Assembly: GCF_020991085.1 (NCBI RefSeq)
Contig: NZ_CP087719.1
Span: 2,996,001-3,060,000, forward strand
Source of the DNA: Roseomonas sp. OT10
GTDB taxonomy: Bacteria; Pseudomonadota; Alphaproteobacteria; Acetobacterales; Acetobacteraceae
Direction: 5' to 3'
Length of the DNA: 64,000 nt
The translations under genes were made by a program, and so were the position numbers. The notes under the pieces were generated by a model that was given only the letters and a program-made list of their open reading frames with translations, was not told the DNA's origin and did not search any database. Positions 20,191-39,216 of this stretch are shown piece after piece (the first letter of the stretch is position 1; each line of letters opens with the position of its first letter).

Positions 20191-20599
20191 GCGGGATGAC
20201 CTGACCGATCGTGCTGTGGTGTTCGGGCGTCGGACCGGGAGGGGACGCCGTCCCCTCCCAGACCCTCCCCTGCCGGGGCCACAAGCGGGCCCCGGTCCCC
20301 GCTGGGAGTTGGTTCTGTGCGGTGGGCGTCAGCCTGCGGGCTGAACCCTGGCGGAGCGCGGACAGGCGGGACTCTGAAAAGATTCACGAGGCGTCAGCCA
20401 GTGCAGTGGCCGTACCCGCCGAGGAGCGTGGCTCCTCGGCGCCTCGACCCCGTATCAGGCTGTCCCGCGGTAGCACTCCCCGGGTCCAGGGCCCGCAGGG
20501 TCCTGGCGGAGTGGGGGTATCGGGGGCGAGGCAGCGCCTTGCCCCCGGGGAACGGACGCACCCCGCGCCGGCACGGACCGGCGCATCGCACCGTCCGTA
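20191..20599 (-). repeat. Dispersed ~410-bp hairpin-rich element, copy A
   Basis: Runs as a single block very similar to copies at 29593-30000 and 38800-39208. The strand given is that of the gene whose stop it follows (the GntR regulator, stop at 20600-20602). Perfect or near-perfect hairpins are seen at 20418-20440 (GCCGAGGAGC, loop GTG) and 20522-20546 (11-bp stem with one G-T pair). Others are formed by CCGGGGCC-acaagcg-GGCCCCGG and by the palindrome in GGAGGGGACGCCGTCCCCTC. Open frames through it are by-products of base composition. Confidence 0.85.
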
Positions 20600-21403
20600 T
20601 CAGCCCGCCTCTGGCGGCGCGGCCTCCCCGCCCCGGCGCAGGCGGAACACGGCGCTGTGGATGAAACGGCCGGCCGGGTAGAGGCCGTCCGCCACCTGCA
20701 GCACCTCGTCCCGCTCGTCGCGGAAGCGGCGGATCATCCGCAGGGCCGCCTCGCCGGGTTCGGCACCCAGGAGTGCCGCCGGCTCGGCCTCCAGCCGGAC
20801 CGGCGTGATCTCCTGGGCGATCTCCACCACGCGCAGCCCGTGCGCCTGCTCGATCATCACGAAGATCGGGTCCGGCGATTCCGCGATCCGGGGCAGGATG
20901 TCCGCTGCCTCGGGCAGGATGTAGGTGGTCAGAACGGCGACCGGCCGCTCGTCCTGCGGCAGGACGCGCAACAGGCGCAGGCGCAGCCAGGCCTTGCCGG
21001 GCCTGCAGCCCAGGAAGCCGGCCAGCGCCGCATCCGCCACCACCTCCTGATGCTCCACCAGGCGCAGCCGTGTCGCGCGCGAGACCTGCAGCAGGTCCTC
21101 GACCGAGGAGGCCCCATGCACGAAGCGGGAGGGCTCGGGCTGGCGGGCGCGGACCCAGGTGCCGATGCCGGGATGGGCCGAAACCACCCCGAACTCCTTC
21201 AGCTCGCGCAGCGCCTGCCGCACCGTATGGCGGCTGACGCCGAAGCGGTCGCACAGCACCGCCTCGGTGGGAAGCTGTTCGCCCACGGCGTAGCGGCCGG
21301 CGCCGATCTCGGCCATCAGCGTCCGGGCCAGGCGGGAGTAGCGGGGGGAGGGCCGGCCGCTCTGCGGGCCGAGCGGCCCGGCGAGCGGCGCGTCGTTGGA
21401 GAT
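20600..21403 (-). CDS. GntR family regulator with UTRA domain
   Basis: About 267 residues. The GntR winged helix spans LPTEAVLCDRFGVSRHTVRQ, preceded by RYSRLARTLMAEIGAG and followed by LKEFGVVSAHPGIGTWV. The C-terminal UTRA domain includes EHQEVVADAALAGFLG, PVAVLTTYILPEAADILP, GLRVVEIAQEITPVR and LQVADGLYPAGRFIH. It is probably the repressor of the adjacent Bug/AtuA operon. Its start is odd: no ATG, GTG or TTG lies between 21404 and the HTH. I place it at an ATC preceded by AAGGAGGCCTGAG at the end of the response-regulator gene. The alternative is the ATG at 21544, overlapping that gene by 140 bp; an internal ATG (MAEIGAG) would cut into the HTH. Confidence 0.75.
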   Translation of the reverse strand: MSNDAPLAGPLGPQSGRPSPRYSRLARTLMAEIGAGRYAVGEQLPTEAVLCDRFGVSRHTVRQALRELKEFGVVSAHPGIGTWVRARQPEPSRFVHGASSVEDLLQVSRATRLRLVEHQEVVADAALAGFLGCRPGKAWLRLRLLRVLPQDERPVAVLTTYILPEAADILPRIAESPDPIFVMIEQAHGLRVVEIAQEITPVRLEAEPAALLGAEPGEAALRMIRRFRDERDEVLQVADGLYPAGRFIHSAVFRLRRGGEAAPPEAG

Positions 21404-21404
21404 C

Positions 21405-22106
21405 TCAGGCCTCCTTGTAGCGGTAGCCGATGCCGTAGAGCGTCTCGATGTGGGAGAAGTCGTCGTCCACCGCCCGGAACTTCTTGCGCACGCGCTTGAC
21501 GTGGCTGTCGATGGTGCGGTCGTCCACGTAGATGTTCTCGCCATAGGCGGCGTCGATCAGCTGGTCGCGGTTCTTCACCATGCCCGGCCGCACCGCCAGC
21601 GCCTTGACCAGCAGGAACTCCGTCACCGTCAGCTGCACCGGCTTCCCCTTCCAGGTGCAGGTGTGCTTGGTCTCGTCCAGCACCAGGTCGCCGCGGGCGA
21701 TCACGCCGCCGGCGGGCGCCCCGGAGCCCTCGGCGCGGCTCGTCTCGTTGCGGCGCAGCAGGGCGCGGATGCGCTCGAGCAGCAGGCGCTGGCTGAAGGG
21801 CTTGGTGATGTAGTCGTCCGCGCCGAGGCGCAGGCCCATCAGCTCGTCCAGCTCGTCATCCTTGCTGGTCAGGAAGATCACCGGCAGGGCGGTGCGCTGG
21901 CGCAGCCGCTGCAGCAGCTCCATCCCGTCCATCCGGGGCATCTTGATGTCCAGCACCGCAAGGTCCGCCGGCCGGGCCAGCAGCCCTTGCAGGGCGCTCT
22001 CCCCGTCCGTGTAGGTGCGGACCTGGTAGCCCTCCTGCTCCAGGGTCATCGAGACGGAGGTCAGGATGTTGCGGTCGTCATCCACGAGGGCGATGGTCTG
22101 GGCCAT
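21405..22106 (-). CDS. chvI: ChvI/OmpR-type response regulator
   Basis: 233 residues. The receiver domain has the acidic pair VDDD at 8-11, phosphoacceptor Asp53 in [11 protein letters not shown], Thr in IFLTSKDD and Lys in DDYITKPFS. The OmpR-type winged helix follows, with [38 protein letters not shown] and [13 protein letters not shown]. The sequence is of the ChvI type, which with the kinase ChvG controls acid, envelope and exopolysaccharide responses in alphaproteobacteria. Unusually, neither ChvG nor the usual HprK/PTS genes are next to it. A PPOX-family gene is divergent across 57 bp. Confidence 0.85.
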
Positions 22107-22163
22107 GGTCAGGGGGTGTCCGGGCGCTTCTCTGCGTCTGCCCCCGCATATAGGGATGGAATT

Positions 22164-22661
22164 GTGGCGCAACCGGGGAACGCGACGGAGGAGCCGGCCG
22201 GGACCGCCCGGCGGCTGATGCGGGAGGCGGCGTCGGCCGTCCTGTCCACCATGGCGGAAGGCGGGCAGCCCTTCGCCTCGCTGGTCACCCCGGCGGTGGC
22301 GCCGGATGGGGCGGTGCTGCTCTGGCTCTCCTCCCTCGCCGTCCACACCCGGCATCTGCAACGGGAGCCGCGCTGCGCCCTGCTGTTCCAGGGGACGGCG
22401 GAGGGGGAGAATCCGCAGACCGCCCCGCGCGTGACCGTCACCGGCCTCGCGGCGCCGGTCGAGGACGCGGCGTTGAAGGCCCTCTGGCTGGAACGCCACC
22501 CCTATGCCGCCCCCTATGCGGATTTCGGGGATTTCCGCCTCTGGCGCATGGACCCGGGCGGCGGGCTGCTGGTGGCGGGCTTCGCCCGGGCGCACCGCCT
22601 CCGCGCCGCTGATTTCCGGCCCCGGGACGCGGCGGCCGGCCCGGAGGAGGAGAGCGCATGA
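22164..22661 (+). CDS. Pyridoxamine 5'-phosphate oxidase-family (HugZ-like) protein
   Basis: 165 residues from a GTG with AGGGA upstream. The split-barrel flavin/heme-binding fold is visible in [60 protein letters not shown] and [20 protein letters not shown]. HugZ proteins degrade heme; others in this superfamily bind FMN or F420. The heme-contact C-terminal extension of full HugZ is short here, so a general flavin-binding role is equally possible. Its stop overlaps the next start (ATGA), so it is coupled to the DUF3237 gene. Confidence 0.78.
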
Positions 22662-23116
22662 GCCAGGAACCCGGATTCGAGTTCATCGGCCTGGTGGAAG
22701 CCTCGGTCGGCCCGCCCCTGCGCGTGGGGAGCGGTGCGATGGGGGAGCGCCGGATCGTCCCGATCCTGGGCGGCCGCGTCGCCGGCCCGCGGCTGGAGGG
22801 CGAGATCCTCCCCGGCGGCGCCGATTTCCAGCTGATCCGCCCGGACGGGGTCACCGAGATCGAGGCGCGCTACACCGTCCGGCTGACGGACGGCGCCCTG
22901 GTCTACGTGGTCAACCGCGGCCTGCGCGACGCCGCCCCCGAGGACATGGCCCGGCTGCTCCGCGGCGAGCCGGTCCCGCCCGAGCGGGTCTATTTCCGCA
23001 CCACGCCGGTCTTCGAGACCCCCTCCCCCGCCCATGCCTGGATGCAGCGCCGCCTGTTCCTCGGCCATGGCGAGCGCCGGCCGGATTCGGTCCACATCCG
23101 CCTCTACGCCGTGTGA
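22658..23116 (+). CDS. DUF3237 family protein
   Basis: 152 residues with the family's beta-barrel pattern: [70 protein letters not shown] and [23 protein letters not shown]3237 (lipocalin-like barrel) members are found beside aromatic and carboxylate catabolic genes, but no reaction is proven. It is translationally coupled to the PPOX-like gene before it, which makes the pair a functional unit of unknown purpose. Confidence 0.82.
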
Positions 23117-23160
23117 CCCGGCGGGCGGCGCGGAGGGCACGCCGCACGATGTGTCCCGCC

Positions 23161-23200
23161 ACGACGCTTCCGGACGCTTCCCGGCGCTTCCGGGCGCTTC
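23161..23200. repeat. Four tandem 10-bp repeats upstream of the peptide ABC operon
   Basis: Four consecutive 10-nt units ending CGCTTC (ACGACGCTTC, CGGACGCTTC, CCGGCGCTTC, CGGGCGCTTC) lie 35-74 bp before the DUF1028 start. The spacing equals one DNA helical turn, so a multimeric regulator could bind along one face. Confidence 0.6.
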
Positions 23201-23234
23201 ACAGATGGCACGGCGCGTGCCTGCATGCGGGGCC

Positions 23235-23948
23235 ATGACCTGGAGCATCCTCGCCCGCGACCCCGACACCGGGGAACTCGGCGCCGCCGTCGCCACCCGC
23301 TTCTTCGCCGTGGGCGCGCTCTGCCTCCGGGTCGAGGGCGGGCTCGGCGCCGCAGCCACCCAGGCGCTGGTCAACCCGCTCCTCGCCCCCGCCGCCCTGG
23401 CCCGGCTGCGCGGCGGCGACGCGCCCGAGGCAGCCCTGGCCGCGACGCTTGCCGCCGATGCGGGGGCCGCGGTGCGCCAGCTGCACCTGCTGGATGCAGC
23501 GGGCCGGGCGGCCTGCCACACCGGGGCGGGATGCGTCGGCTGGGCCGGGCAGGCGGCGGGCCGGGACGTCTCGGTGGCGGGCAACATGCTCGCGGGCCAG
23601 GCGGTCGTGACGGCGACGCGCGACGCCTTCCTGGACGGCGCCGGCCGCCCCATGGCCGAACGGCTGATCGCGGCGCTGGAGGCGGGACAGGCGGCCGGCG
23701 GCGACAAGCGCGGCCGGCAGTCCGCCGCCCTGGTCACCGCCGGGCCGGAGGATGCCTTCCCCGCCCTGGACCTGCGGGTGGACGACCACCCGGATCCGCT
23801 GGCGGAGCTGCGCCGGCTGCACGCCGTCGCCCGCCAGCGCTTCGTGCACTACCGCCGCTTCCTGGCGGGGCGCGACCATCCCGGCGTCTTCGACCGGGCG
23901 GTGCTGGACCGGCTGATCGCGCAATCCATGGCGGACCCCGCCCCGTGA
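23235..23948 (+). CDS. DUF1028 family Ntn-hydrolase-like protein
   Basis: 237 residues. It begins MTWSILARDPDTGELGAAVA and continues with LCLRVEGGLGAAATQALVNP, GRAACHTGAGCVGWAGQAAG, VSVAGNMLAGQAVV and RGRQSAALVTAG, which define DUF1028. The family has an Ntn-hydrolase fold and is thought to contain peptidases or amidases. It is the first gene of a peptide-type ABC transporter operon and overlaps the next gene (GTGA), so it may trim an imported peptide or amide. No catalytic residue has been proven. Confidence 0.85.
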   Translation: MTWSILARDPDTGELGAAVATRFFAVGALCLRVEGGLGAAATQALVNPLLAPAALARLRGGDAPEAALAATLAADAGAAVRQLHLLDAAGRAACHTGAGCVGWAGQAAGRDVSVAGNMLAGQAVVTATRDAFLDGAGRPMAERLIAALEAGQAAGGDKRGRQSAALVTAGPEDAFPALDLRVDDHPDPLAELRRLHAVARQRFVHYRRFLAGRDHPGVFDRAVLDRLIAQSMADPAP

Positions 23949-24949
23949 GCCATTCCCCCGACCCCGGACCCTGGGCCCTGGAGCTGGACGGGGTCTCGGT
24001 CGCCTTCGCCACCGATCGCGGTCCGCTGCGCGCGGTGGACGGCGTCTCCCTCGCCGTCGCCCCCGGCCGCACCCTGGCCGTGGTCGGCGAGAGCGGCTGC
24101 GGCAAGTCCGCCACCGCCCTGGCGGTGATGGGGCTGCTGGCCCCCGGCGCCACGGTCGGCGGCCATATCCGCCTGGCCGGGCAGGAGATCGCCACCCTGC
24201 CCGAGGCGGAGCGCCGCGCCCTGCGCGGCGGCCGCATGGCGATGATCTTCCAGGAGCCGATGACCTCGCTGAACCCCGCCTTCACCGCCGGGGAGCAGAT
24301 CGCCGAGGCGCTGCGCCTGCACGAGAAGCTGTCCCATGCCGCCGCCTTCGACGCGGCGGTCGCCATGCTGGAGCGCGTCCGCATCCCCGACGCCGCCCGC
24401 CGCGCCCGCCAGTACCCGCACCAGCTCTCCGGCGGCATGCGGCAGCGCGTGATGATCGCCATGGCGCTGGCCTGCCGCCCGCGCGTGCTGATCGCGGACG
24501 AACCGACCACCGCCCTGGACGTGACGGTGCAGGCGGGGGTCCTCGCCCTCCTCGACGGGCTGCGCCGCGACACCGGCACCGCGGTCATCCTGGTCACGCA
24601 CGACCTGGGCGTCGTCGCCGACCATGCCGACGACGTCGTCGTGATGTATGCCGGCCGCGTCGCGGAATCCGGCCCCGCCAGCCGCGTGCTCTCCCACCCC
24701 GAGCACCCCTACACCATCGGCCTGCTCGGCGCGGCACCCCGGCTGGACACCCCCCGCGGCACCCGCCTCGCCTCCATCGACGGCACCGTCCCCGACCTGA
24801 TGCACCCGCCCCCCGGCTGCCGCTTCGCCCCGCGCTGCCCCTTCGCGGTCGCCGCCTGCAACGACGCCCAGCCGCCGCTGGTCGAGGTGGGGCCGGGGCA
24901 TCGCGCGGCCTGCATCCGGGCGCCGCTCGACGCGGCGCTGGCGGCATGA
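23945..24949 (+). CDS. Oligopeptide/dipeptide ABC transporter ATP-binding protein (DppD/OppD type)
   Basis: 334 residues from a GTG that overlaps the previous stop. Walker A is GESGCGKSATALAV, the Q-loop FQEPMTSLNP, the signature LSGGMRQRVMIAMALA, Walker B VLIADEPTTALDVT and the switch His in VTHDLGVVADH. The C-terminal oligopeptide domain has RFAPRCPFAVAACNDAQPP, the Cys-containing stretch known to bind FeS in some peptide transporters. It energises uptake together with the next ATPase and the two permeases. Confidence 0.92.
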   Translation: MSHSPDPGPWALELDGVSVAFATDRGPLRAVDGVSLAVAPGRTLAVVGESGCGKSATALAVMGLLAPGATVGGHIRLAGQEIATLPEAERRALRGGRMAMIFQEPMTSLNPAFTAGEQIAEALRLHEKLSHAAAFDAAVAMLERVRIPDAARRARQYPHQLSGGMRQRVMIAMALACRPRVLIADEPTTALDVTVQAGVLALLDGLRRDTGTAVILVTHDLGVVADHADDVVVMYAGRVAESGPASRVLSHPEHPYTIGLLGAAPRLDTPRGTRLASIDGTVPDLMHPPPGCRFAPRCPFAVAACNDAQPPLVEVGPGHRAACIRAPLDAALAA

Positions 24950-24986
24950 GGCCTTGCACCTTCCTCCGGGCGGCGGGGAGCGCCGC

Positions 24987-26054
24987 ATGACCCCGCTGCT
25001 GGAACTCGACGGGCTGGTGAAGCACTTCCCCGTCCGGGACTCGCTGGGACGCCGGCGCGGCGCGGTGCATGCGGTGGACGGCGTGTCGCTGCGCGTGGCG
25101 CCGGGCGAGGTGCTGGCGGTGGTGGGGGAGAGCGGCTGCGGCAAGTCCACGCTCGCGCGGCTGGCCCTGCGGCTGATCGAGCCGGATGCGGGCTCGGTGC
25201 GCTTCGAGGGCCGGGAGCTGCGCGACCTCTCCCCGGCGGCGCTGCGGGCCTGGCGGCGCGACGCGCAGATGATCTTCCAGGACCCCTATGCCAGCCTCGA
25301 TCCCCGCATGACGGTGGGCGCGGCAGTGGCGGAGCCGCTGCGCCTGCACGGCATCGTCCCGCGGGCCCGGGAGGCGGAGCGGGTGGCCATGCTGCTCGCC
25401 CGGGTGGGGCTGCGGCCGGAGCAGGCGCAGAGATGGCCGCACGAATTCTCCGGCGGGCAGCGGCAGCGCATCGCCATCGCCCGCGCCCTGGCCAGCGGGC
25501 CGCGGCTGGTGGTGGGGGACGAGCCGGTCAGCGCGCTGGACGTCTCCGTGCAGGCGCAGGTGATCAACCTGCTGCAATCGCTGATCCGCGAGCTGCGGCT
25601 GGCCTTCATCCTGATCTCGCACGACCTCGCCGTGGTGCGGCACGTCGCCGACCGGGTGGCGGTGATGTACCTCGGCCAGATCGTCGAGGAGGGGCCGGCC
25701 GAGGCGGTCTTCGCCGATCCGCGCCATCCCTATACCCGGGCGCTGCTGGCCTCCGTGCCCGGCGAGGGCGGGGCCGCGCCGCTGGAGGGCGACGTGCCCA
25801 GCCCGATCGCGCCCCCCGCCGCCTGCCGCTTCCACACCCGCTGCCCGCTGGCGCAGCCGGTCTGCCGCACGGCCGACCCGGCGCTGGCGCCGGCAGGGGG
25901 CGACGCCGCGCACCGCTCCGCCTGCCATTTCCGCGACAGCCTGCCGCCGCTGGAACGCCGCCGGCATGACGCCGCCGGCGAACGGCTCCGCCGGCTGCAG
26001 CGCTTCTTCATCCCTGCCAACCTCGACACGCCGTCACCGGGAGACGCCGCATGA
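24987..26054 (+). CDS. Oligopeptide/dipeptide ABC transporter ATP-binding protein (DppF/OppF type)
   Basis: 355 residues; the start with GGGAG upstream is preferred to one 11 codons earlier. Walker A is GESGCGKSTLARLALRL, the Q-loop FQDPYASLDPRMTV, the signature FSGGQRQRIAIARALA, Walker B VVGDEPVSALDVSV and the switch LISHDLAVVRH. The C-terminal Cys region CRFHTRCPLAQPVCRT is present. An extra ~35-residue basic tail (LERRRHDAAGERLRRLQRF) follows. The stop overlaps the start of the binding protein (ATGA). Confidence 0.92.
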   Translation: MTPLLELDGLVKHFPVRDSLGRRRGAVHAVDGVSLRVAPGEVLAVVGESGCGKSTLARLALRLIEPDAGSVRFEGRELRDLSPAALRAWRRDAQMIFQDPYASLDPRMTVGAAVAEPLRLHGIVPRAREAERVAMLLARVGLRPEQAQRWPHEFSGGQRQRIAIARALASGPRLVVGDEPVSALDVSVQAQVINLLQSLIRELRLAFILISHDLAVVRHVADRVAVMYLGQIVEEGPAEAVFADPRHPYTRALLASVPGEGGAAPLEGDVPSPIAPPAACRFHTRCPLAQPVCRTADPALAPAGGDAAHRSACHFRDSLPPLERRRHDAAGERLRRLQRFFIPANLDTPSPGDAA

Positions 26055-27577: not shown

Positions 27578-27584
27578 CCGTCCG

Positions 27585-28528
<944 letters not shown>

Positions 28529-28532
<4 letters not shown>

Positions 28533-29413
28533 GCGCGGCGACGACCGCCGCCGCGGTGCCCGCGCGGGGCGAGGGCCCCTGGCGCCGGGCGCTGCGGCGC
28601 TTCCTGCGCCGCCGCCTTGCCGTGCTGGGGCTGGTCGTGGTGCTGGCCTTCGTGGCCGCCGCGATCCTGGCGCCCTGGATCGCGCCCTTCGATCCCGCCG
28701 CCACCTCCTGGTCGCGCATCCGCAAGCCGCCCTCGGACCTCCACTGGTTCGGCACGGACGAGAACGGGCGCGACGTGCTCTCGCGCGTGCTCTGGGGCGG
28801 GCGCGCCTCGCTGATGGCGGGCTTCGTCTCCGTGGCCGCGGCGCTGCTGGCCGGCGTGCCGCTGGGGCTGCTGGCCGGGCTGACGGGCGGCTGGGTGGAT
28901 GCCGCCATCTCGCGGCTGGCGGATGCCATGCTGTCCGTGCCCTTCCTGATCCTGGCCATCGCGCTCGCCGCCTTCCTGGGCCCGGCGCTGGAGAACGCGA
29001 TGCTGGCCATCGCCATCTCCGCCACGCCGATCTTCGTGCGCCTCGCCCGCGGCATGGCGCTGGAAGCCAGGGCGACGGAATGGGCCGAGGCCGCGCGGGC
29101 CCTGGGCAACCCGCCCTGGCGCACCGCGCTGGTGCACGTCCTGCCCAACATCGTCCCGCCCCTGCTGGTCCAGGGGACGCTGGCGGTGGCAGAGGCGATC
29201 ATCGCCGAGGCGTCGCTGAGCTTCCTCGGCCTCGGGCAGCAACCGCCCGCGCCCTCCTGGGGCTCGATGCTGAACGCGGCGCAGCGCTTCCTGGGGCAGG
29301 CCCCCTGGATGGCGATCTATCCCGGACTGGCCATCTTCCTGGTGGTGCTCGCCTTCAACCTGCTCGGCGACGGGCTGCGCGATGCGCTGGACCCGCGGTC
29401 CGGCGGACGCTGA
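28529..29413 (+). CDS. Peptide ABC transporter permease (DppC type)
   Basis: 294 residues. It has the extended N-terminal region with RFLRRRLAVLGLVVVLAFVA, then HWFGTDENGRDVLSRVLWGG, the typical DppC periplasmic motif, and the EAA loop EWAEAARALGNPPWRTALVH. It ends SFLGLGQQPPAPSWGSML and FNLLGDGLRDALDPR. It is the final gene of the operon, coupled to the preceding permease by an ATGA overlap. Repeat copy B begins 180 bp later. Confidence 0.92.
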
Positions 29414-29592
29414 GGCCCATCCCAGGCGCCGCCCGGAGGCCGGCGGCAGACCCGAGGGCCGGATCACGCCGGGCGCCGGAGCCCGTCAGGGAAAGGCCCG
29501 GGGCGGGGACGCCGTCCCCTACCTGTCCCGCGCCCGAATGCCCGTGACCGGGCGCCGGATCGCACAACCCCGCCGCCCGCGTCACACCGGCG
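29414..29592. other. Intergenic stretch with a repeat fragment
   Basis: Follows the ABC operon. It includes GGGGACGCCGTCCCC around 29507-29521, the central palindrome of the ~410-bp element, but not the rest of it. No gene is supported here. Confidence 0.45.
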
Positions 29593-30000
29593 GCGGGATG
29601 AGATGACCTGTCGTGCTGTCGTGTTCGGGCGGGGGACCGGGAGGGGACGCCGTCCCCTCCCAGACCCTCCCCTGCCGGGGCCACAAGCGGGCCCCGGGCC
29701 CCGCTGGGAGTTGGCTCGGGGCGGTGGGTGTCAGCCTCCGGGCTGAACCTTGACGGAGCGCGGACAGGCGGGACTCTGGAAAAGAGTTGTAGGCGTTAGC
29801 GAGTGCTGCGGCCGGTCCCGCCGAGGAGCCATGCTCCTCGGCGCCTCGACCCCGTCTCAAGCTGTCCCGCGGCAGCGCGGATCGGGTCCAGGGCCCGCAG
29901 GGTCCTGGCGGAGTGGGGGTACGGGGGCGAGGCAGAGCCTTGCCCCCGGGCCACGGGCGCCCCCCGCGCCGGCACGGATCAGCGCATCACGCCCACCGTA
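29593..30000 (-). repeat. Dispersed ~410-bp hairpin-rich element, copy B
   Basis: Matches copy A along its whole length. Its end CACCGTA touches the TCA (complement of TGA) of the propeller-like gene at 30001. The main stem-loop at 29820-29842 has the same 10-bp arms as copy A with loop CAT instead of GTG. The palindrome in GGAGGGGACGCCGTCCCCTC and the CCGGGGCC/GGCCCCGG hairpin are conserved. The strand given is that of the gene it follows. Confidence 0.85.
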
Positions 30001-30891
30001 TCAAAGTCCGACGAGGCGTTGCGCCACCACCTCTCGCTTGCTGCGGATGATCTGCCACAGCACGTCCGGGGCGGAGGTGTCCCAGGCGATGGCCTGCCCT
30101 TCTGCCTCGATCGGCAAGGTCATCACCCGTTCCAGCACGGAGCCCATGCGCGGCAGGCGCAAGGCATACACCTCCTTGTGGTCGTGCCCCGTGCACCACA
30201 GGAAGCCGCCCGGCCCCCAGGAGGCGCCGGAGATGGACATGGGCGTCGCGCGTTGCAGCACGTCCGCCGGGAAGGTCCAGCCGCCGGTCTGGCGCATGTC
30301 GCGGTCGTGCCGGGTCAGTTGGGTCCACCAGGTGTTGCCATAGGGGCGCTGGTTGCGGCCGAAGACCAGCGAGTAGTTCGCCCAGACCGCCCACCAGGCG
30401 CCGTCATGCCATTCGAAGCTGGTCAGGCTGCCCGGCATGATGCCGAAGGAATGGCTGCCGGTGTGGCGCAGCGTCGCCGCATCGAAGCGCTCCACCGAGG
30501 AGAGCATCGGCTCCTCGGAATAGTTCGAGTGCGCGGCGATCACCTCCCCCTCGTGCAGGGAGAGGCTGTTCATGTGGATGATCGGCCCCTCGCGCGGGCT
30601 CTCGAAGCGGGCCAGCTCGGCGTTGCTGCGCCGGTCGTGCTTGATGATCAGCCGGTTGTCGACGGCGTAGACGGCGTCGGCATCGGCACAGACCCCCTGC
30701 CGCGCCGCGGGGGTGGTGAAGCGGGCGATGGTCTCGAAGCGGCGCTCCGGGGCCTGGGCTGGGGCCGGAGCCGGGGCCGCCTGGGCCGCGGCGCGCCGGG
30801 CGAGGCCGGTGGCAGCCAGGCCGCCGAGCAGGGGAGCGGCGAGCAGGGTGCGGCGCCCCGTGCCCGAGGCGGGCGGCGGATGCTGGGACAT
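30001..30891 (-). CDS. Exported protein of unknown function (propeller-like)
   Basis: 296 residues. GRRTLLAAPLLGGLAATGLA is a probable twin-arginine signal, followed by an Ala/Pro-rich spacer. The mature part has repeated Trp- and Tyr-rich strands such as FEWHDGAWWAVWANYSLVFG, GASWGPGGFLWCTGHDHKEV and AIAWDTSAPDVLWQIIRSK, resembling blades of a beta-propeller. The family is not recognised. GGAGG precedes the ATG. Its stop directly abuts repeat copy B. It may function with the GFA gene upstream on the same strand, but nothing links them firmly. Confidence 0.65.
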   Translation of the reverse strand: MSQHPPPASGTGRRTLLAAPLLGGLAATGLARRAAAQAAPAPAPAQAPERRFETIARFTTPAARQGVCADADAVYAVDNRLIIKHDRRSNAELARFESPREGPIIHMNSLSLHEGEVIAAHSNYSEEPMLSSVERFDAATLRHTGSHSFGIMPGSLTSFEWHDGAWWAVWANYSLVFGRNQRPYGNTWWTQLTRHDRDMRQTGGWTFPADVLQRATPMSISGASWGPGGFLWCTGHDHKEVYALRLPRMGSVLERVMTLPIEAEGQAIAWDTSAPDVLWQIIRSKREVVAQRLVGL

Positions 30892-30967
30892 GGGCGTTCC
30901 TCCAGGATTCGTTCCGCGGAGGATGGCAGCCGGCCGGCCCGACCGTCGAGGGACGGACGCGGCCCGC

Positions 30968-31366
30968 CTATCCGCCGAGGCGTCGGTCCCGGTACGCCGG
31001 CAGCCCGTCGTCGGTGGCGACCCAGCTTAGCCTGGTCGCGACGTGCGTGTGGTCGCGCGGCGGCACGGCCTCCGGATCGTCCAGAGAGGCGGTGGTGACG
31101 TCGATCTCATCCGGGGTCTGCGCCGCGGCGAAGGTCAGCGACGTGCCGCAGCGCCGGCAGAAGCAGCGCGTCGCACCGGGGCTGGAGGCGTAGCGCGCCG
31201 GTTCCCCCGCCACCCAGCGGAAGCCCTCCCGGGGCACGCTGAACCAGGCCACCATCGGCGCCCCGGCCGCGCGCCGGCACATGCCGCAGTGGCAGATGGT
31301 CGGGTGGAAGGGCGCGCCCTCCGCCTCGTACCGCACCTGCCCGCACAGGCAGCCACCCTGGAGCAT
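30968..31366 (-). CDS. GFA family (glutathione-dependent formaldehyde-activating enzyme-like) zinc protein
   Basis: 132 residues. The zinc-binding pattern is complete: GGCLCGQVRYEAEG, ICHCGMCRRAAGAP, and GATRCFCRRCGTSLTFA. These small proteins have the Gfa/Mss4-like fold; most members do not act on formaldehyde and their substrates are unknown. A second ATG two codons upstream (31372) would place the ribosome-binding GGAG too close, so the inner start is chosen. Confidence 0.83.
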   Translation of the reverse strand: MLQGGCLCGQVRYEAEGAPFHPTICHCGMCRRAAGAPMVAWFSVPREGFRWVAGEPARYASSPGATRCFCRRCGTSLTFAAAQTPDEIDVTTASLDDPEAVPPRDHTHVATRLSWVATDDGLPAYRDRRLGG

Positions 31367-31485
31367 CGGCATCTCTCCGCCCGGACCGCCGGGCCACCTC
31401 CCCGCGCGGCGGCACCGTCCCATGGGCGGCGATCCGATGCCAGGGCGGGCAGGGCGACGACCGCGCCGTCCTTCGCCGGGCGGCG

Positions 31486-32487: not shown

Positions 32488-32499
32488 GGCTGTTCCGGT

Positions 32500-33753
32500 T
32501 CAGAAGCGGTCGGGACGGAAGGGCTCCAGCGGCAGGCTGGGCGGGGCGCCGCCGATCAGCTCGGCGACCAGCCGTCCGGTGCCCGCGCTCTGGGTCAGGC
32601 CGAGATGGCCATGGCCGAAGGCATAGACCACGCGCGGCGTGGCGCGGGAAGGGCCGATCACCGGCAGGCTGTCGGGCAGCGAGGGGCGGAACCCCATCCA
32701 CCGCGTCCCGCCCTCCGTCCGCAGCCCCGGGAGGAAAGCCGCCGCCTTGCGCAGCATGGCATCCGAGCGGGCGAAGTTCGGCGGCCGCTTCAGCCCGCCC
32801 AGCTCCACCGCACCGCCGATGCGGATGCCCGTGGCGAGCGGCGTCGCCACGAAGCCGTGCCCGCCGAAGGTGAGCTGCCGGCGCAGGTCGAAGGCACCGG
32901 GCGGCAGGGTGGTGTTGTAGCCGCGCTCCGTCTCCAGCGGGATGCGATCGCCCAGGGCGGCGGCCAGCGGGCGAGACCAGGCGCCGCCCGCGACCACCGC
33001 CCGCGCCGCCCGCAGGGTCCCGCCGCCCGCCAGTTCCAGCCGCACCCCCTCCCCCTCCGGGGCCAGGCGTCGCACCTCGGCGCGGGTCAGCGCGACGCCC
33101 TGTGCCAGCAGGTGGTCGGCCAGGGAGCGGGCGAAGAGGTAGGGATCGTCCACCGTCTGCCAGTCGGGCGTGAAGCTGCCCACCACGAAGCGCGGCGACA
33201 GGCCCGGCTGCGACGCGGCCAGCTCCGCGCCGCGCAGATGCGCGAAGCGGATGCCCTCGGCCTCGCGCGCCGCCCAGCCGGGCAGGGAGGCGCGCCACTC
33301 CGCCTCGGACTCGAACAGCTCCAGGTTGCCGTCGTCGCGGACCCGTCCCCCCAGGCCGGCCCCGGCCACCATCTCCCGCATCGCCTCCGCGGCGACCCGC
33401 ATCAGCCCCGCCTGGGCCAGCGCGGCCGCGGCGTAGCGGTCGGGCCGGCTGGCGCGCCAGAAGCGCCACAGCCAGGGCGCGATGGCCGGCGCATGGGCCG
33501 GCGGCACGGAGAGCGGGCCGAGCGGGTCCAGCAGCCAGCGCGGCGCCTTGCGCATGATTCCGGGCGAGGCGAGCGGCAGGATGTCGGTGAAGGCGAAGGC
33601 GCCGGCATTGCCGCGGCTGGCGCCCTCGGCGATGCCGCCCCGCTCGATCAGCCGGACCCGGTGGCCGGCGGCGTGGAGGTGGTAGGCGACGGCCAGGCCG
33701 ACGATGCCGGCGCCGATCACGGCGACCTCCCCCGGGCCCTCGCTCACCGCCAT
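32500..33753 (-). CDS. FAD-dependent oxidoreductase, probable D-hydroxyproline dehydrogenase
   Basis: 417 residues, DadA-like. The FAD fold is EVAVIGAGIVGLAVAYHLHA, then ASRGNAGAFAFTDILPLASP. The C-terminal substrate/FAD region is WMGFRPSLPDSLPVIGPSRA with AFGHGHLGLTQSAGTGRLVA. In operon with a hydroxyproline epimerase the likely substrate is cis-4-hydroxy-D-proline, oxidised to the pyrroline carboxylate. The ATG with GAGGGG is chosen; a start 13 codons upstream is possible. The later steps (deaminase, ketoglutarate-semialdehyde dehydrogenase) are not in the window. Confidence 0.85.
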   Translation of the reverse strand: MAVSEGPGEVAVIGAGIVGLAVAYHLHAAGHRVRLIERGGIAEGASRGNAGAFAFTDILPLASPGIMRKAPRWLLDPLGPLSVPPAHAPAIAPWLWRFWRASRPDRYAAAALAQAGLMRVAAEAMREMVAGAGLGGRVRDDGNLELFESEAEWRASLPGWAAREAEGIRFAHLRGAELAASQPGLSPRFVVGSFTPDWQTVDDPYLFARSLADHLLAQGVALTRAEVRRLAPEGEGVRLELAGGGTLRAARAVVAGGAWSRPLAAALGDRIPLETERGYNTTLPPGAFDLRRQLTFGGHGFVATPLATGIRIGGAVELGGLKRPPNFARSDAMLRKAAAFLPGLRTEGGTRWMGFRPSLPDSLPVIGPSRATPRVVYAFGHGHLGLTQSAGTGRLVAELIGGAPPSLPLEPFRPDRF

Positions 33754-33984
33754 CCCCTCGGCAGCGCACCCCTGCCCCGACGCGCCATCCATCGCATGCC
33801 GCCGCCCGGTCCCTGGGTTCCCCCCTCATCATGTGGGCCCTGCGCCCGGCGCGCCAGACGCCGCCCCGACCTGGACGGCCGGCCCGCCCCGTACAAGCCC
33901 TTGTGACACCCGCGCCCGGGCGGCCCCGGCTCGTTCCCTTCCCCTGCCCCCGGGAGCAAGGTTGCGGACGGATGAGGGGTTGGC

Positions 33985-34971
33985 ATGGCGATTCTGCGGA
34001 AAGTCCTGCTGGCGGTGGCTGCCGTCGGGGTCCTGGCAGGTGGAGGCTACGCAGCCTGGCGCCACTTCGGCCGCGAGCCTGCCCTGCCCTCCTACATCGT
34101 CGCGACCAACGGCCGCATCGAGGCGGAGCAGTTCGACATCGCCAGCAAGATCGCCGGGCGCGTCGTGGAGGTGGCGGTCGAGGAAGGCCAGATGGTCGCG
34201 GCCGGGGCGGTGGTGGCCCGGCTGGACGATTCGACCCTCCAGGCCCAGCTCCGCGCCGCCGAGGCCCAGGTGGCCGAGGCGCAGCAGGCCATCGCCTCGG
34301 CCGAGGCGGAGCGGCTGCGCGCCGCCAGCACCCGGCAGCTCGCCCAGACGGAGCTGGCGCGTACCCAGGAGCTGGCCCGGCGGGGCTTCGCCCCCACCGA
34401 GCAGCTCGACCAGCGCCGCTCCACCCTGGAGGTCGCGGAGGCCACGGTCGCCACCGCCGAGGCCGGGCGCCGCCGCGCCGAGGCGACCCTCGCCGCCGCC
34501 CAGGCCAACGCCGCCCAGGTCCGCACCCTGCTGGACGACACGGTGCTGGCCGCGCCGCGCGCCGGGCGCGTGCTGTACCGGCTGGTCCGCAGCGGCGAGG
34601 TGGTGGCCGCGGGCGGCCGCATCGCCACGCTGATCGACCCGACCGACGTGTCGATGGTCGTCTTCCTCCCCGCCGCCCAGGCCGGGCAGCTCGCTTACGG
34701 GGCGGAGGCGCGGCTCGTGCTCGATCCCATCCCGCAATACGTGCTGCCGGCGACCGTCAGCTTCGTCGCGCCCGAGGCGCAGTTCACCCCGCGCCAGGTG
34801 GAGACGGCGCAGGAGCGCGGCAACCTGATGTTCCGCGTCAAGCTGCGCCTGCCGGAATCGCTGCTCCAGGCGCATGTCGAGCAGGTGAAGGGTGGCGTGC
34901 GCGGCCTGGGCTACGTCCGGCTGGACACCGCGCAGCCCTGGCCGGAGCAGCTTCAGGTCCGCCTGCCGTGA
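33985..34971 (+). CDS. HlyD/YhiI-type membrane fusion protein
   Basis: 328 residues. An N-terminal membrane anchor (VLLAVAAVGVLAGGGYAAW) precedes a biotinyl-lipoyl-like domain (NGRIEAEQFDIASKIAGRVV, EGQMVAAGAVVARLD), a long alpha-helical hairpin of Ala/Glu/Arg heptads (~75-180), and the beta-barrel part with VLAAPRAGRVLYRLVRSGEV and MFRVKLRLPE. It connects an inner-membrane ABC exporter to the envelope. Its stop overlaps the RbbA-type ATPase start (GTGA), matching the yhiI-rbbA-yhhJ order. Confidence 0.9.
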   Translation: MAILRKVLLAVAAVGVLAGGGYAAWRHFGREPALPSYIVATNGRIEAEQFDIASKIAGRVVEVAVEEGQMVAAGAVVARLDDSTLQAQLRAAEAQVAEAQQAIASAEAERLRAASTRQLAQTELARTQELARRGFAPTEQLDQRRSTLEVAEATVATAEAGRRRAEATLAAAQANAAQVRTLLDDTVLAAPRAGRVLYRLVRSGEVVAAGGRIATLIDPTDVSMVVFLPAAQAGQLAYGAEARLVLDPIPQYVLPATVSFVAPEAQFTPRQVETAQERGNLMFRVKLRLPESLLQAHVEQVKGGVRGLGYVRLDTAQPWPEQLQVRLP

Positions 34972-37688
34972 CCGCGGCGCCCGCCGCCACGTTGCACGAT
35001 GTCCGGCACCACTATGGGCGCGTCGCCGCGCTGGACGGGGTGAGCCTCGACATCCCCGCCGGGGTGATGGCGGGTCTGGTGGGTCCCGACGGGGTGGGCA
35101 AGTCCACCCTGCTGGGCCTGCTCGCCGGGGTGCGCCGGCCGCAGGAGGGGGAGATCACGGCGCTCGGCGGCGACCTGCGCGATCCGCAGGTGCTGGTCCG
35201 GGCGCGGCAGCGCATCGCCTACATGCCCCAGGGGCTGGGGCGGAACCTGTACCAGACGCTGTCGGTGGCGGAGAACATCGACTACTTCGCCCGGCTCTTC
35301 GGCCAGGGTGCCGCGGAACGGAAGCAGCGCGCGGCGGAGCTGACGCGCGCCACCGGCCTCTCCCGCTTCCTGGACCGGCCGGCCGGCAAGCTCTCGGGCG
35401 GCATGAAGCAGAAGCTCTCCCTCTGCTGCGCGCTGGTGCGCGACCCCGACCTGCTGATCCTGGACGAGCCCACCACCGGCGTCGATCCGCTCTCCCGCCG
35501 GCAGTTCTGGACCCTGATCGACCGGCTGCGCGAGCGGCGCCCGCAGATGAACGTGCTGGTCGCCACCGCCTACATGGACGAGGCGCAGCGCTTCGACTGG
35601 CTGGCGGCGATGGATGCGGGGAAGGTCATCGCCACCGGCAGCCCGGCGGAGATCCTAGCGCGCACCAGCACCGACAGCCTGGAGGCGGCCTTCATCGCCC
35701 TGATGCCGGAGGAGCGGCGCCGCGGCTACCAGCCCGTGGTCATCACCCCGCCGACCCCGCATCCCGGCGAGGCGCCGGTGATCGAGGCGAAGGGCCTGAC
35801 CAAGCGCTTCGGCGACTTCGTGGCGGTGGACCACGTGAACCTCCGCATCGGCCGGGGCGAGATCTTCGGCTTCCTGGGCTCCAACGGCTCGGGCAAGAGC
35901 ACGACGATGCGCATGCTGACCGGGCTGCTGCCGGCCAGCGAGGGCGAGGCGCGCATCCTGGGCCAGCGCCCCGGCGCAGGCGGCGACGCGCGGCGGCAGG
36001 TCGGCTACATGTCCCAGTCCTTCTCGCTCTATGGCGAGCTGACGGTGCGGCAGAACCTCCAGCTGCATGCCGACCTGTTCCACCTGCCGTCCGACCGCGC
36101 CGCCGCGCGCATCGCCGCGGTGCTGCACGATTTCGACCTGGAGGGCGTCGCCGACGCCGCACCGGAATCCCTGCCGCTGGGCGTGCGGCAGCGGCTCCAG
36201 CTCGCGGCGGCCATGGTGCACGAGCCAGCGCTGCTGATCCTGGACGAGCCGACCTCGGGCGTCGATCCGGTGGCGCGCGACCTGTTCTGGCGACACCTGC
36301 TGCGCCTGTCGCGGGAGCAGGGGGTGACGATCTTCATCTCCACCCACTTCATGAACGAGGCGGAGCGCTGCGACCGCATCTCGTTGCAGCATGCCGGCCG
36401 CATCCTGGCCATGGGCCCGCCGGCCGAGCTGGTGGCGCAGCGCCACGCCGCCTCGCTGGAGGAGGCCTTCATCGGCTGGCTGGAGGAGGCCGCCGGGTCG
36501 CAGGACGGGGGGGACGCCCCGCTGCCGGAGCTGCCGTCCGGCGCGCGGCCGGCCGGGTCCTGGGTCTTCGACCCGCGCCGCCTGCTGGCCTGCGCCTGGC
36601 GGGAATCGCTGGAGCTGCTGCGCGACCCGATCCGCCTCGCCTTCGCGCTGCTGGGGCCGCTGCTGCTGACGCTCGCCTTCGGCTTCGGCATCTCCTTCGA
36701 TGTCGAGAACCTGCCCTATGCGGTGCTGGACGGCGACCGCACGCCGGAGAGCCGCGGGCTGCTGGAGAGCTTCGCCGGCTCCCGGTACTTCTCGGAGCGG
36801 CCGCCGCTCGCCGATGCGGCGGAGGCCGAGGCGCGCCTGCAGGCGGCCCGGATCGCCCTGGCGGTGGAGATTCCGCCGGGCTTCGGCCACGACCTGCGCC
36901 GCGGCGACCGGCCGGAGGTCGCGGTGGCCGTCGACGGCGCCATGCCCTTCCGCGCGGAGACGGCGCGCAGCTACGTGCTGGGCCTGGCGCAGACCTGGCT
37001 GCGCGACCAGCAGGCGCTCTCGCCCCTGCCGTACAGCCCCGCGCTGCTGACCCTCGAATCCCGCTTCCGCTACAATCAGGCCTTCCGCAGCGCCGTCGCC
37101 ATCGTGCCCGGCGTGATCATGCTGATGCTGATGCTGGTCCCCGCCATGCTCTCCGCCGTCGGCGTGGTGCGGGAGAAGGAGAGCGGCGCCATCGCCAACT
37201 TCCGCGCCACCCCCGTCACGGCGCCGGAATTCCTGATCGGCAAGCAGATCCCCTACATCGCCATCGCCCTGACCAGCTTCGTCACGCTGCTGCTGGTCGC
37301 CTGGCTGGTCTTCGACGTGCCCGTGCTGGGCTCCGGCGCCGCGCTGGCGGCGGGGGCGGTGCTCTACGTGCTGGCCTCCACCGGCTTCGGCCTGCTGGTC
37401 TCCGCCTTCGTCTCCAGCCAGGTGGCGGCGATCTTCGCCGCGGCCATCCTCTCCATCGTCCCGGCCGTGAACTTCTCCGGCCTGCTGGTGCCCACGGCCT
37501 CCCTCGCCGGCCCGGCGCGCGGCATCGGCCTCGCCTTCCCCGCGAGCTGGTTCCAGCAGATCTCGATCGGGGCGATGAGCAAGGGGCTGCGCTTCGCCGA
37601 GCTGTGGCACAACCACCTGATGCTGGCGGGCTTCGCCCTGCTGTTCATCGGCGCCGCCGCGCTGCTGCTGCGCAAGCAGGAGGCCTGA
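34968..37688 (+). CDS. rbbA: RbbA-type ABC transporter: two ATPase domains fused to a permease
   Basis: 906 residues. ATPase 1 has Walker A GPDGVGKSTLLGL (39-51), signature LSGGMKQKLSLCCALV and Walker B LLILDEPTTGVDPLS. ATPase 2 has GSNGSGKSTTMRM, a degenerate signature LPLGVRQRLQLAAAMV and LLILDEPTSGVDPVA. The last ~370 residues are an ABC-2 permease with a periplasmic domain and segments such as AIVPGVIMLMLMLVPAMLSA. E. coli RbbA is reported to associate with ribosomes, but this architecture is that of an exporter in the YhiI/YhhJ system. The GTG start is coupled to the fusion protein. Confidence 0.9.
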   Translation: MTAAPAATLHDVRHHYGRVAALDGVSLDIPAGVMAGLVGPDGVGKSTLLGLLAGVRRPQEGEITALGGDLRDPQVLVRARQRIAYMPQGLGRNLYQTLSVAENIDYFARLFGQGAAERKQRAAELTRATGLSRFLDRPAGKLSGGMKQKLSLCCALVRDPDLLILDEPTTGVDPLSRRQFWTLIDRLRERRPQMNVLVATAYMDEAQRFDWLAAMDAGKVIATGSPAEILARTSTDSLEAAFIALMPEERRRGYQPVVITPPTPHPGEAPVIEAKGLTKRFGDFVAVDHVNLRIGRGEIFGFLGSNGSGKSTTMRMLTGLLPASEGEARILGQRPGAGGDARRQVGYMSQSFSLYGELTVRQNLQLHADLFHLPSDRAAARIAAVLHDFDLEGVADAAPESLPLGVRQRLQLAAAMVHEPALLILDEPTSGVDPVARDLFWRHLLRLSREQGVTIFISTHFMNEAERCDRISLQHAGRILAMGPPAELVAQRHAASLEEAFIGWLEEAAGSQDGGDAPLPELPSGARPAGSWVFDPRRLLACAWRESLELLRDPIRLAFALLGPLLLTLAFGFGISFDVENLPYAVLDGDRTPESRGLLESFAGSRYFSERPPLADAAEAEARLQAARIALAVEIPPGFGHDLRRGDRPEVAVAVDGAMPFRAETARSYVLGLAQTWLRDQQALSPLPYSPALLTLESRFRYNQAFRSAVAIVPGVIMLMLMLVPAMLSAVGVVREKESGAIANFRATPVTAPEFLIGKQIPYIAIALTSFVTLLLVAWLVFDVPVLGSGAALAAGAVLYVLASTGFGLLVSAFVSSQVAAIFAAAILSIVPAVNFSGLLVPTASLAGPARGIGLAFPASWFQQISIGAMSKGLRFAELWHNHLMLAGFALLFIGAAALLLRKQEA

Positions 37689-37692
37689 CGCC

Positions 37693-38799
37693 TTGGGCCG
37701 CCTGTCCAACATCCTCTGGCTGGGGCTGAAGGAGCTGCGGGTGCTGCGCGCCGACCCGGTGCTGCTGGTGCTGCTGGCCTACACCTTCACCGTCGCCGTC
37801 TATACCGTCGCCACGGGGATGAAGACGGAGGTCCGCAACGCCGCCGTGGCGGTGGTGGACGAGGACCGCTCCGACCTCTCGCGCAGCCTCGCCGCCGCGC
37901 TGCTGCCGCCGCAGTTCCGGCCGGCCGTGCCCATTGCCGCGCCCGAGGTCGGGTCGGCTTTGGATGCCGGGCGCTTCACCTTCGTGCTGCAGATCCCGCC
38001 GCGCTTCGAATCGGACCTGCTGTCCGGCCATCCGGCGACGCTGGGGCTGGAGGTGGACGCCACGGCCATGTCCCAGGCGGGCAACGGCGCCTCCTATATC
38101 GGGCAGATCGTCCAGGCGGAGGTGGCGCAGCGCCTGGGCAGTCCGGCGGAGCCGCTGGACCTGGTGATCCGCACCCGCTTCAACCCGAACAGCCAGTCGG
38201 AATGGTTCACCTCCGTCATGCAGGTGGTGAACAGCACGCTGATCCTCTCCATCATCCTGCCCGGCGCCGCCCTGCTGCGCGAGCGCGAGCACGGCACGCT
38301 GGAGCACCTCCTGGCCATGCCGGTCGGGCCGCTGGAGATCCTGCTGGCCAAGATCGGCGCCAATGCGCTGGTCATCGTCGGCGCCGCCGTGCTGTCGCTG
38401 CTCTTCGTGGTGCGCGGGCTGCTGGGGGTGCCGGTCGCCGGCTCCATCCCCCTCTTCGTGCTGTGCACCGTGCTGTTCCAGGTCTCCGTCGCGGCGCTGG
38501 GCATCCTGCTGGCGACGATGACCAGCACCACGGGACAGTTCGGCCTGCTCGCCCTGCCGGCCATCATCCTGATGATGCTGCTCTCCGGCAGCATGACGCC
38601 GCTGGAAAGCATGCCCGACTGGCTGCAATACGCGGTGCAGGCGCTGCCCACGACCCAGTTCGTCGCCATCGCCCAGGCCATCCTCTACCGCGGCGCCGGG
38701 CTGGAGGTGGTGGCACCGCGTATGGCCGCCCTCGCGGCGTTGGGCCTCGGCTTCCTGAGCGTCACCTTCCTGCGCCTGCGTGCGACCCTGGCGGGATGA
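37693..38799 (+). CDS. ABC-2 type permease (YhhJ-like)
   Basis: 368 residues from a TTG preceded by AGGAGG, which decides the start. It has an N-terminal TM (VLLVLLAYTFTVAVYTVATG), a ~150-residue periplasmic domain including FTFVLQIPPRFESDLLSG, and five C-terminal TM segments with the ABC-2 loop PGAALLREREHGTLEHLLAM. It is the partner permease of the RbbA-type protein 4 nt upstream. Repeat copy C begins at the base after its TGA. Confidence 0.9.
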   Translation: MGRLSNILWLGLKELRVLRADPVLLVLLAYTFTVAVYTVATGMKTEVRNAAVAVVDEDRSDLSRSLAAALLPPQFRPAVPIAAPEVGSALDAGRFTFVLQIPPRFESDLLSGHPATLGLEVDATAMSQAGNGASYIGQIVQAEVAQRLGSPAEPLDLVIRTRFNPNSQSEWFTSVMQVVNSTLILSIILPGAALLREREHGTLEHLLAMPVGPLEILLAKIGANALVIVGAAVLSLLFVVRGLLGVPVAGSIPLFVLCTVLFQVSVAALGILLATMTSTTGQFGLLALPAIILMMLLSGSMTPLESMPDWLQYAVQALPTTQFVAIAQAILYRGAGLEVVAPRMAALAALGLGFLSVTFLRLRATLAG

Positions 38800-39208
38800 T
38801 CGCGGACGGTGCGATGCCCTGATCCATGCCGGCACGGGCTGCGCCCGTGGCCCGGGGGCAAGGCGCTGCCTCGCCCCCGTACCCCCACTCCGCCAGGACC
38901 CTGCGGGCCCTGGACCCGATCAGCGCTGCCGCGGGACAGCCTGCGACGGGGTCGAGGCGCCGAGGAGCCATGCTCCTCGGCAGGCACGGCCGCAGCATTC
39001 GCTGATGCCTATGAAGCTTTTTCAGGGGTCCGCCTGTCCGCGCTCCGTCAGGGTTCAGCCCGGAGGCTGACGGCAGCAGCCAGCGCCAGACTCCCAGCGG
39101 GACCGGGGCCCGCTTGTGGCCCCGGCAGGGGAGGGTCTGGGAGGGGACGGCGTCCCCTCCCAGTGCCGCCGCCCGACCACGACGGCACGACGGGTCAGGT
39201 CATCCGGT
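38800..39208 (+). repeat. Dispersed ~410-bp hairpin-rich element, copy C
   Basis: Inverted relative to copies A and B in the window, but in the same orientation relative to the gene it follows (the YhhJ-like permease). Stem-loop at 38959-38981 has arms GCCGAGGAGC/GCTCCTCGGC. Other hairpins include CACGGGC-tgc-GCCCGTG near its start, CCGGGGCC-cgcttgt-GGCCCCGG, and a palindrome within GGAGGGGACGGCGTCCCCTC. It fills the gap to the convergent aldo/keto reductase. Confidence 0.85.
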
Positions 39209-39216
39209 CGCCCGGA

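Follow-up and report, generated by a model that had tools for sequence, protein, structure and literature searches.

The 64,000-nucleotide stretch of Roseomonas sp. OT10 DNA analyzed here (contig NZ_CP087719.1, positions 2,996,001 to 3,060,000; referred to as the window) contains three copies, A, B, and C, of a noncoding repeat that meets the stop codons of neighboring genes. The question raised by this locus is how a repeat comes to be placed on stop codons while the genes remain whole. Our analyses indicated that the repeat is very probably a nonautonomous family of DNA transposons resembling miniature inverted-repeat transposable elements (MITEs), ~420 bp in length, noncoding and with six GC-rich hairpins, which duplicates a TSA target (TGA or TCA) and survives mainly in the 3'-3' gaps between convergent genes. 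Placement on stop codons was found to result mainly from a 3-bp target-site duplication combined with restriction to convergent gaps.

The genome is of the Roseomonas type, with 5,689,429 bases (5.7 Mb) in a chromosome and two smaller contigs, which we read as plasmids and of which 350,000 of 359,931 bases were examined. Copies were counted over the whole genome with the core of hairpin H5, allowing up to 2 mismatches and using the reversed pattern as a control. Full copies were collected from 60 chromosome stretches (732,640 bases), selected around exact H5-core matches (the first 100 among those listed), and from the window, amounting to 796,640 bases. A full copy was required to score at least 300 bits against a profile built from 30 copies; 79 copies were kept, 3 copies at stretch edges were dropped, and weaker or partial matches were left uncounted. 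Flanking genes were assigned with our own codon-usage gene caller.

Ends and target-site duplication of the repeat family

The H5 core had 216 matches in the genome (113 on the plus strand and 103 on the minus strand) and the reversed control had none, so the family is not a product of chance. The best 40 of 406 first-look candidates in blastn were 87 to 100% identical to the query over 357 to 400 of its 400 bases; an additional 32 of the matches listed were short. These copy numbers, together with an exact stop codon at one end of 55 of the 79 full copies, bore out the proposal of an earlier, sequence-only reading that the repeat is a mobile or amplified element with stop-codon placement. The same reading had described one orientation relative to the adjoining gene in all three window copies, and this did not extend to the family: 28 copies had the exact stop codon on the left and 27 on the right, by which a fixed orientation was ruled out.

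Both inverted repeats were recognized, by match to their consensus, in 58 of the 79 copies, and end analysis was performed on these; in the remaining 21 the match was insufficient at one or both ends. The terminal inverted repeats are ~16 bp in length with the consensus TACSGACGGCGGGATG (116 ends of the 58 copies, chosen by match to the consensus), and the exact form of this sequence occurs 27 times in the genome, always on the chromosome. TGA or TCA was present at both ends of 37 of the 58 copies, and the two trinucleotides were identical in 36 of these (TGA/TGA in 23 copies and TCA/TCA in 13, with a single TGA/TCA pair). The identical end trinucleotides are a 3-bp target-site duplication. 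An alternative in which the stop codon is the element's own end was ruled out by the presence of the same trinucleotide at both ends in 36 of the 37 copies, with TGA/TCA once. Outside the duplication, C preceded TSA in 31 of 36 copies and G followed it in 24 of 36, compared to proportions of 0.67 and 0.35 for control TGA stops (n = 510), giving TSA in the context CTSAG as the preferred target. Near-identical copies were absent, the highest identity among 600 sampled pairs being 91%. The family has the traits of a MITE, with terminal inverted repeats, a target-site duplication, no transposase gene, a length of ~420 bp, and 216 core copies. No match to the element was detected by blastn at E 1e-5 in plasmid or phage collections, and the exact core was absent from the viral contig collection searched; these collections may lack records closely related to this genome. 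As a separate observation, one copy (stretch L003, ~1480 to 1920) was flanked by a direct repeat of ~13 to 15 bases, CACAGGGAGAGGGCG, which is longer than the usual 3 bp.

Alignment of copies A, B, and C gave a mean column identity of 86% over 518 columns, flanks included. The earlier reading had recognized three full copies of an element of ~410 bp; all three exist and belong to the ~420-bp repeat, its limits falling short by ~11 bases (the 3-bp end trinucleotides included) at the end opposite the named gene. Its claim that each copy touches a stop codon was exact for copy A (the GntR gene) and copy B (a 296-amino-acid gene). At copy C, the permease stop is overlapped with a one-base offset and the exact stop is that of an aldo-keto reductase gene, the identity of which was confirmed by Pfam. 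Pfam likewise upheld the names GntR/UTRA and ABC-2 permease, while the supposed propeller-like protein of 296 residues was matched by neither Pfam nor NCBIfam at E 0.001. The absence of coding logic noted earlier is in keeping with the gene caller, which called no gene inside copies A to C; mechanical open reading frames of at least 100 amino acids do run across them. Rfam gave 0 matches above the gathering score in the window.

Placement between genes and the stop codons of relatives

The flanking genes of the 79 copies were convergent in 65 cases, co-directional in 14 (copy A among them), and divergent in none. Occupancy of junctions was determined in 464 kb of the stretches, in which 36 elements of >200 bits were detected and 32 were placed. 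Of the convergent junctions, 27 of 66 contained the element, compared to 5 of 232 that were co-directional and none of 67 that were divergent (Fisher p 5e-18). The level of occupancy is an upper estimate, because the stretches were picked as holding copies, but this selection does not account for the difference between junction classes. Convergent gaps hold a proportion of only 0.16 of the intergenic TSA sites (20% of CTSAG sites), and 27 of 32 insertions were observed there (p 3e-17). The occupied and empty convergent junctions of this one genome form a natural experiment in which the influence of structure at gene ends on termination, mRNA stability, and convergent transcription could be measured.

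TGA duplications coincided with the stop of the left gene in 17 of 23 cases and TCA duplications with that of the right gene in 13 of 13. In 18 of 27 reconstructed cases the convergent gap was <100 bp. Within convergent gaps, 23 of 27 insertions hit a stop codon, compared to 19.5 expected from the TSA sites (P 0.047), so that a preference for stop codons beyond target choice is weak, with hits slightly above expectation. These results indicated that contact with stop codons is largely due to the TSA target and to survival in 3'-3' gaps.

Corresponding gene ends in relatives were compared to determine whether the stops had been found or made. The dgt gene of this genome ends with ...ATC TGA, followed by the element, and in three same-genus genomes (G003, G012, and G004) dgt ends at the same codon, as ...GTC TGA. 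When the ends of five genes were compared in G003, G004, G012, and G013, 15 of 16 corresponding ends had no match to either element profile. The parE end lacked the element in all four relatives; its partner gene differs there, and our own copy near parE sits 95 bases past the parE stop, so this does not qualify as an exact empty site. As read from the sequence, the copy C permease terminates in FLRLRATLAG, similar to FLRLRRSLAG in Roseomonas sp. KE0001. The closest matches to this permease were in Roseomonas mucosa ATCC BAA-692 (92% over 225 residues, to a contig end), Roseomonas sp. KE0001 (81%), and Roseomonas acroporae (80%), with the reservation that nearer records may be missing. Truncation of a gene by insertion was seen neither at dgt nor at the copy C permease, the two genes compared. 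At the genes that could be checked, the element appears to have found existing stops. The flanking genes of the window copies were mostly too rare in the genus for a comparison of ends: among 14 relatives, the GntR gene at copy A had one match, 42% identical (G003), and the copy C permease had a 92% match in G004 and matches of 46 to 53% in two others. None of the 14 same-genus genomes yielded a match to the 296-amino-acid protein at copy B at E 1e-30.

In the mechanism that we propose, a DDE transposase acting in trans would make a staggered cut at a 3-bp TSA target within CTSAG, and the terminal inverted repeats would be joined to the cut target, leaving TGA or TCA at both ends, as in the duplications described above. 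Insertions would then be kept mainly where neither a reading frame nor a promoter is harmed, and such selection would produce the observed distribution in convergent gaps. In short gaps of this kind the gene's own TGA would usually be among the very few TSA sites, and the element would land on the stop codon. The gene would stay intact because the target trinucleotide, its stop, is duplicated on insertion, and it would retain its original end, as the relatives without the element support for dgt. A parasite could achieve harmlessness by this route if it targets the commonest stop codon and duplicates it, so that the host gene stays whole.

The features of the three copies and their flanks are collected in Table 1. 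Two further segments of the window resemble parts of the element. A second H1-like hairpin, GGGCGGGGACGCCGTCCCC, lies at 29495-29534, ~50 bases before copy B, and is possibly a fragment of an older insertion. A degenerate, core-only relative (38 bits) is present on the plus strand at 52379-52526, between the minus-strand genes at 51223-52254 and 52532-53290.

Table 1. Coordinates in the window of copies A, B, and C, their parts, and the genes on either side
Feature	Position	Strand	Basis or remark
Copy A, complete, with both 3-bp duplications	20180..20602	+	alignment, gene calls
Copy A, TctC-type receptor gene	19075..20037	-	flank, co-directional
Copy A, GntR regulator gene	20600..21316	-	flank, co-directional
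Copy A, left duplication TCA	20180..20182	.	
Copy A, right duplication TCA (stop TGA of GntR gene)	20600..20602	-	
Copy B, complete, with both 3-bp duplications	29582..30003	+	alignment, gene calls
Copy B, OppC-type permease gene	28529..29413	+	flank, convergent
Copy B, 296-amino-acid gene	30001..30891	-	flank, convergent
Copy B, left duplication TCA	29582..29584	.	
Copy B, left terminal inverted repeat	29585..29600	+	
Copy B, hairpin H1, GGGAGGGGACGCCGTCCCCTCCC	29639..29661	+	
Copy B, hairpin H2, GCCGGGGCCACAAGCGGGCCCCGG	29674..29697	+	read from sequence; block conservation
Copy B, hairpin H3, TCAGCCTCCGGGCTGA	29731..29746	+	
Copy B, hairpin H4, CGCCGAGGAGCCATGCTCCTCGGCG	29819..29843	+	two stem pairs covary between species
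Copy B, hairpin H5, GGTCCAGGGCCCGCAGGGTCCTGG	29885..29908	+	core used for counting
Copy B, hairpin H6, CGGGGGCGAGGCAGAGCCTTGCCCCCG	29922..29948	+	
Copy B, right terminal inverted repeat	29985..30000	-	
Copy B, right duplication TCA (stop TGA of 296-amino-acid gene)	30001..30003	-	
Copy C, complete	38798..39219	-	end trinucleotides mismatch each other
Copy C, ABC-2 permease gene	37693..38799	+	flank, convergent
Copy C, aldo-keto reductase gene	39217..40014	-	flank, convergent
Copy C, end trinucleotide TGA (stop of aldo-keto reductase gene)	39217..39219	-	
Permease stop TGA overlapping other end of copy C	38797..38799	+	

Candidate mover, hairpin conservation, and rival explanations

A candidate for the mover was provided by a resident insertion sequence (IS) of 954 bp, the transposase of which is of the IS5 family according to NCBIfam (NF033580). 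All 12 copies of this IS have a 3-bp TNA duplication (TGA in 5, TCA in 3, TAA in 2, and TTA in 2), with C before the target in 10 of 12 and G after it in 9 of 12. A preference for TNA targets, with formation of a 3-bp repeat that was TGA in the reported case, has been described for the IS1031 group of IS5 (PMC12016507), and the resident IS probably belongs to this group. The 36 identical duplications of the element, 23 of TGA and 13 of TCA, also fit TNA. Because a resident IS5-family element duplicates TNA in the same C..G context, our best guess is that the mover would be an IS5-family, IS1031-like transposase acting in trans.

Several findings weigh against a transposon family of this kind. 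More than a third of the copies with both repeats (22 of 58) do not have identical end trinucleotides. The inverted repeat of the element starts with TACSGACGG and not with GAG or GAA, as do the two resident IS5-type groups, the ends of which start with GAGCCTGATCCG and GAACCCGTTTCA; the published ISLrh inverted repeat starts with GAACCTG (PMC12016507). Because the inverted repeats are unalike, membership of an IS5 group is not established. Of 34 PF01609 matches, 30 were scanned at their loci and none had matching ends alongside; the PF01609 transposases at these loci were rejected as partners on these grounds. Outside the copies, the repeat motif was detected 10 times in 0.8 Mb, as two edge-cut copies and eight weak matches (14.7 to 17.9 bits, chance not assessed). 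The plasmids hold no full copy and two divergent relatives, compared to ~13 expected at the genome-wide density by our own arithmetic. As proof of an empty site, dgt is compromised in that the sequence downstream differs in G003, G012, and G004, where no match to the element follows the gene. The ABC-2 gene end in G003 (L217) bears a sister-type chain, and some junctions may stay occupied over time. On visual inspection, neither a clear inverted repeat nor a clear duplication was evident in most of the related elements of G003 and G012.

The scarcity of the element on plasmids, together with the lack of near-identical copies, suggests that transposition ended before these plasmids arrived or that plasmids are poor targets. 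The family is probably immobile at present, given that its copies have diverged and that the search yielded no partner transposase. The only relatives of the element detected on the smaller contigs are at 4733-5086 and 8259-8582 of the 286-kb contig C2 (L253), both divergent from the chromosomal family, and the same contig carries 9 of the 12 copies of the 954-bp IS (L226 to L234).

The hairpins were found to be far more conserved than the remainder of the element. Agreement with the consensus over the 58 copies was 98% in H1 and H2, 93% in H3, 95% in H4, and 98% in H5 and H6, compared to 79 to 86% in the spacers and 81 to 82% in the inverted repeats. The value for H5 is overstated, because the stretches were chosen around the exact H5 core; H1, H2, H4, and H6 were not selected for. 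Copies compared in pairs differed at 4.3% of hairpin positions and at 22.7% of spacer positions. The paired end trinucleotides of one copy, identical at the start, differ at ~20% of sites (56 copies), a figure to which misplaced ends may contribute. The duplicated trinucleotides form an internal clock against which slow change stands out, and the hairpins evolve several times slower than this clock. An alignment of 10 of our own copies with 15 sister copies showed that, out of 60 predicted pairs, 16 remained paired despite changes in both partners; H1, H4, and H5 contain 7 of these, and two H4 pairs separate all of our own copies from all sister copies. Sister copies are those of G003 and G012, which carry a homologous hairpin chain (profile length, 341). 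Among 31 matches that scored 80 bits or more and for which both flanks were known, the flanks were convergent in 14, co-directional in 17, and divergent in none. A minority of sister copies start with TGATCCGGGCGGCGGAACGC or a slightly different form, similar to the inverted repeat of our own family (L179 near 17790, L193 near 11207, and L194 on the minus strand near 2920 in reversed coordinates), and two subfamilies may coexist. The sister-type chain by the ABC-2 gene end in G003 occupies 2175-2508 of L217, and our own counterpart also has an element nearby, which may reflect either common descent or separate insertions.

The slow hairpins and their covariation suggest either constraint through selection or gene conversion, and a structural role at gene or transcript ends is plausible on the strength of these alignments. 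They form the case for a domesticated 3'-end device, in which a selected hairpin chain would block polymerase from both sides, protect mRNA 3' ends, or absorb supercoils between convergent genes. Occupation of 27 of 66 convergent junctions, albeit in a sample chosen for holding copies, and the absence of divergent flanks among the 31 sister chains point in the same direction. Against this, 39 of the 66 convergent junctions have no element, the plasmids, with 23 convergent junctions, are nearly devoid of it, and the dgt and parE ends of relatives do without it. The earlier reading had suggested that the element may act as a terminator or transcript-end protector; terminator-like sites with a T-run were no more frequent than chance in 20000-39400 (2 found, one of them in copy A, compared to 2.7 in shuffles). 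Weak partial matches of 37 and 52 bits were detected at one divergent junction in G012 (L187). Furthermore, 84% of the spacer variants are common to at least 4 copies, which points to subfamilies or gene conversion, and conservation of the hairpins hence need not mean selection on each copy; the covarying pairs likewise reflect few evolutionary events. We regard domestication as a serious alternative that is nevertheless on the improbable side of even. A composite history, in which a stop-duplicating transposon seeded the hairpin chains at convergent ends and these have since been recruited as a selected, homogenized transcript-end device with stems covarying between species, seems rather unlikely.

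The target-site duplication in 36 of 37 copies also bears on two explanations that involve a different origin. A structured feature of convergent junctions, whether RNA or DNA, that was kept vertically and never mobile could look transposed; a match, if only a short one, is present in 12 of 14 same-genus relatives (up to 17 best candidates per genome), the stems covary, and the G003 chain at L217 shows that 1 of the 16 corresponding ends is occupied. Such a feature is very unlikely given the duplication, the 15 corresponding ends without a match (dgt in three genomes and parE in four among them), and the position of the window copies beside genes that are rare in the genus, namely, the 296-amino-acid gene at copy B, the GntR gene at copy A, and the permease at copy C. 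A palindrome family of the repetitive extragenic palindrome (REP) or bacterial interspersed mosaic element (BIME) type, moved by a RAYT transposase (Y1, TnpA-REP), would account for the high copy number, the palindromic units, and the 3'-end placement, and GTAG REPs are likewise located between genes that are convergent or unidirectional, where they can contribute a TAG stop codon (PMC3733652). The element differs from these in having terminal inverted repeats with a 3-bp duplication and in its length of ~420 bp compared to 20 to 40 bp for REPs (PMC3733652), and we consider this origin the most improbable of all. A MITE-like transposon family remains the reading that we prefer.

Relation to known systems

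No description of the family was found among the papers listed on Roseomonas or Acetobacteraceae repeats or on MITEs at convergent ends or stop codons, as judged by titles, and a word search of the main text of a 2024 review of prokaryotic MITEs returned neither "stop codon" nor "convergent" (PMC10969869). A likeness in placement is seen with RUP and SPRITE of Streptococcus pneumoniae, noncoding repeats that, as is the Roseomonas element, are concentrated between convergent genes, an enrichment that has been taken to indicate parasitic mobile elements (PMC3049150). RUP targets sites that contain TA, and indirect evidence links it to IS630-Spn1; the repeats covered in the same review are <200 bp and mostly A+T-rich (PMC2229807). 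In contrast, the Roseomonas element is ~420 bp in length and very GC-rich, with six hairpins, a TSA duplication, and no known partner.

With the IS1031 group, the element shares a 3-bp TNA target and the C..G context of the resident 954-bp IS, but it lacks a transposase gene and carries an inverted repeat unlike those of the resident IS5-type elements. GTAG REPs and BIMEs resemble it in being palindromic and placed at 3' ends, and the termini of GTAG REPs often provide the stop codon TAG; their units are of 20 to 40 bp, and the architecture of inverted repeats plus target duplication in the Roseomonas element departs from the units described at the start of that report (PMC3733652). BOX elements of S. 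pneumoniae can also supply a stop codon (PMC3049150), but that stop lies inside the BOX repeat, whereas in the Roseomonas element the stop is the target and is duplicated at both ends. Compared to these systems, the family is unusual in its length, its GC-rich hairpin chain, the use of a stop codon as the duplicated target, and the slow evolution of its hairpins.

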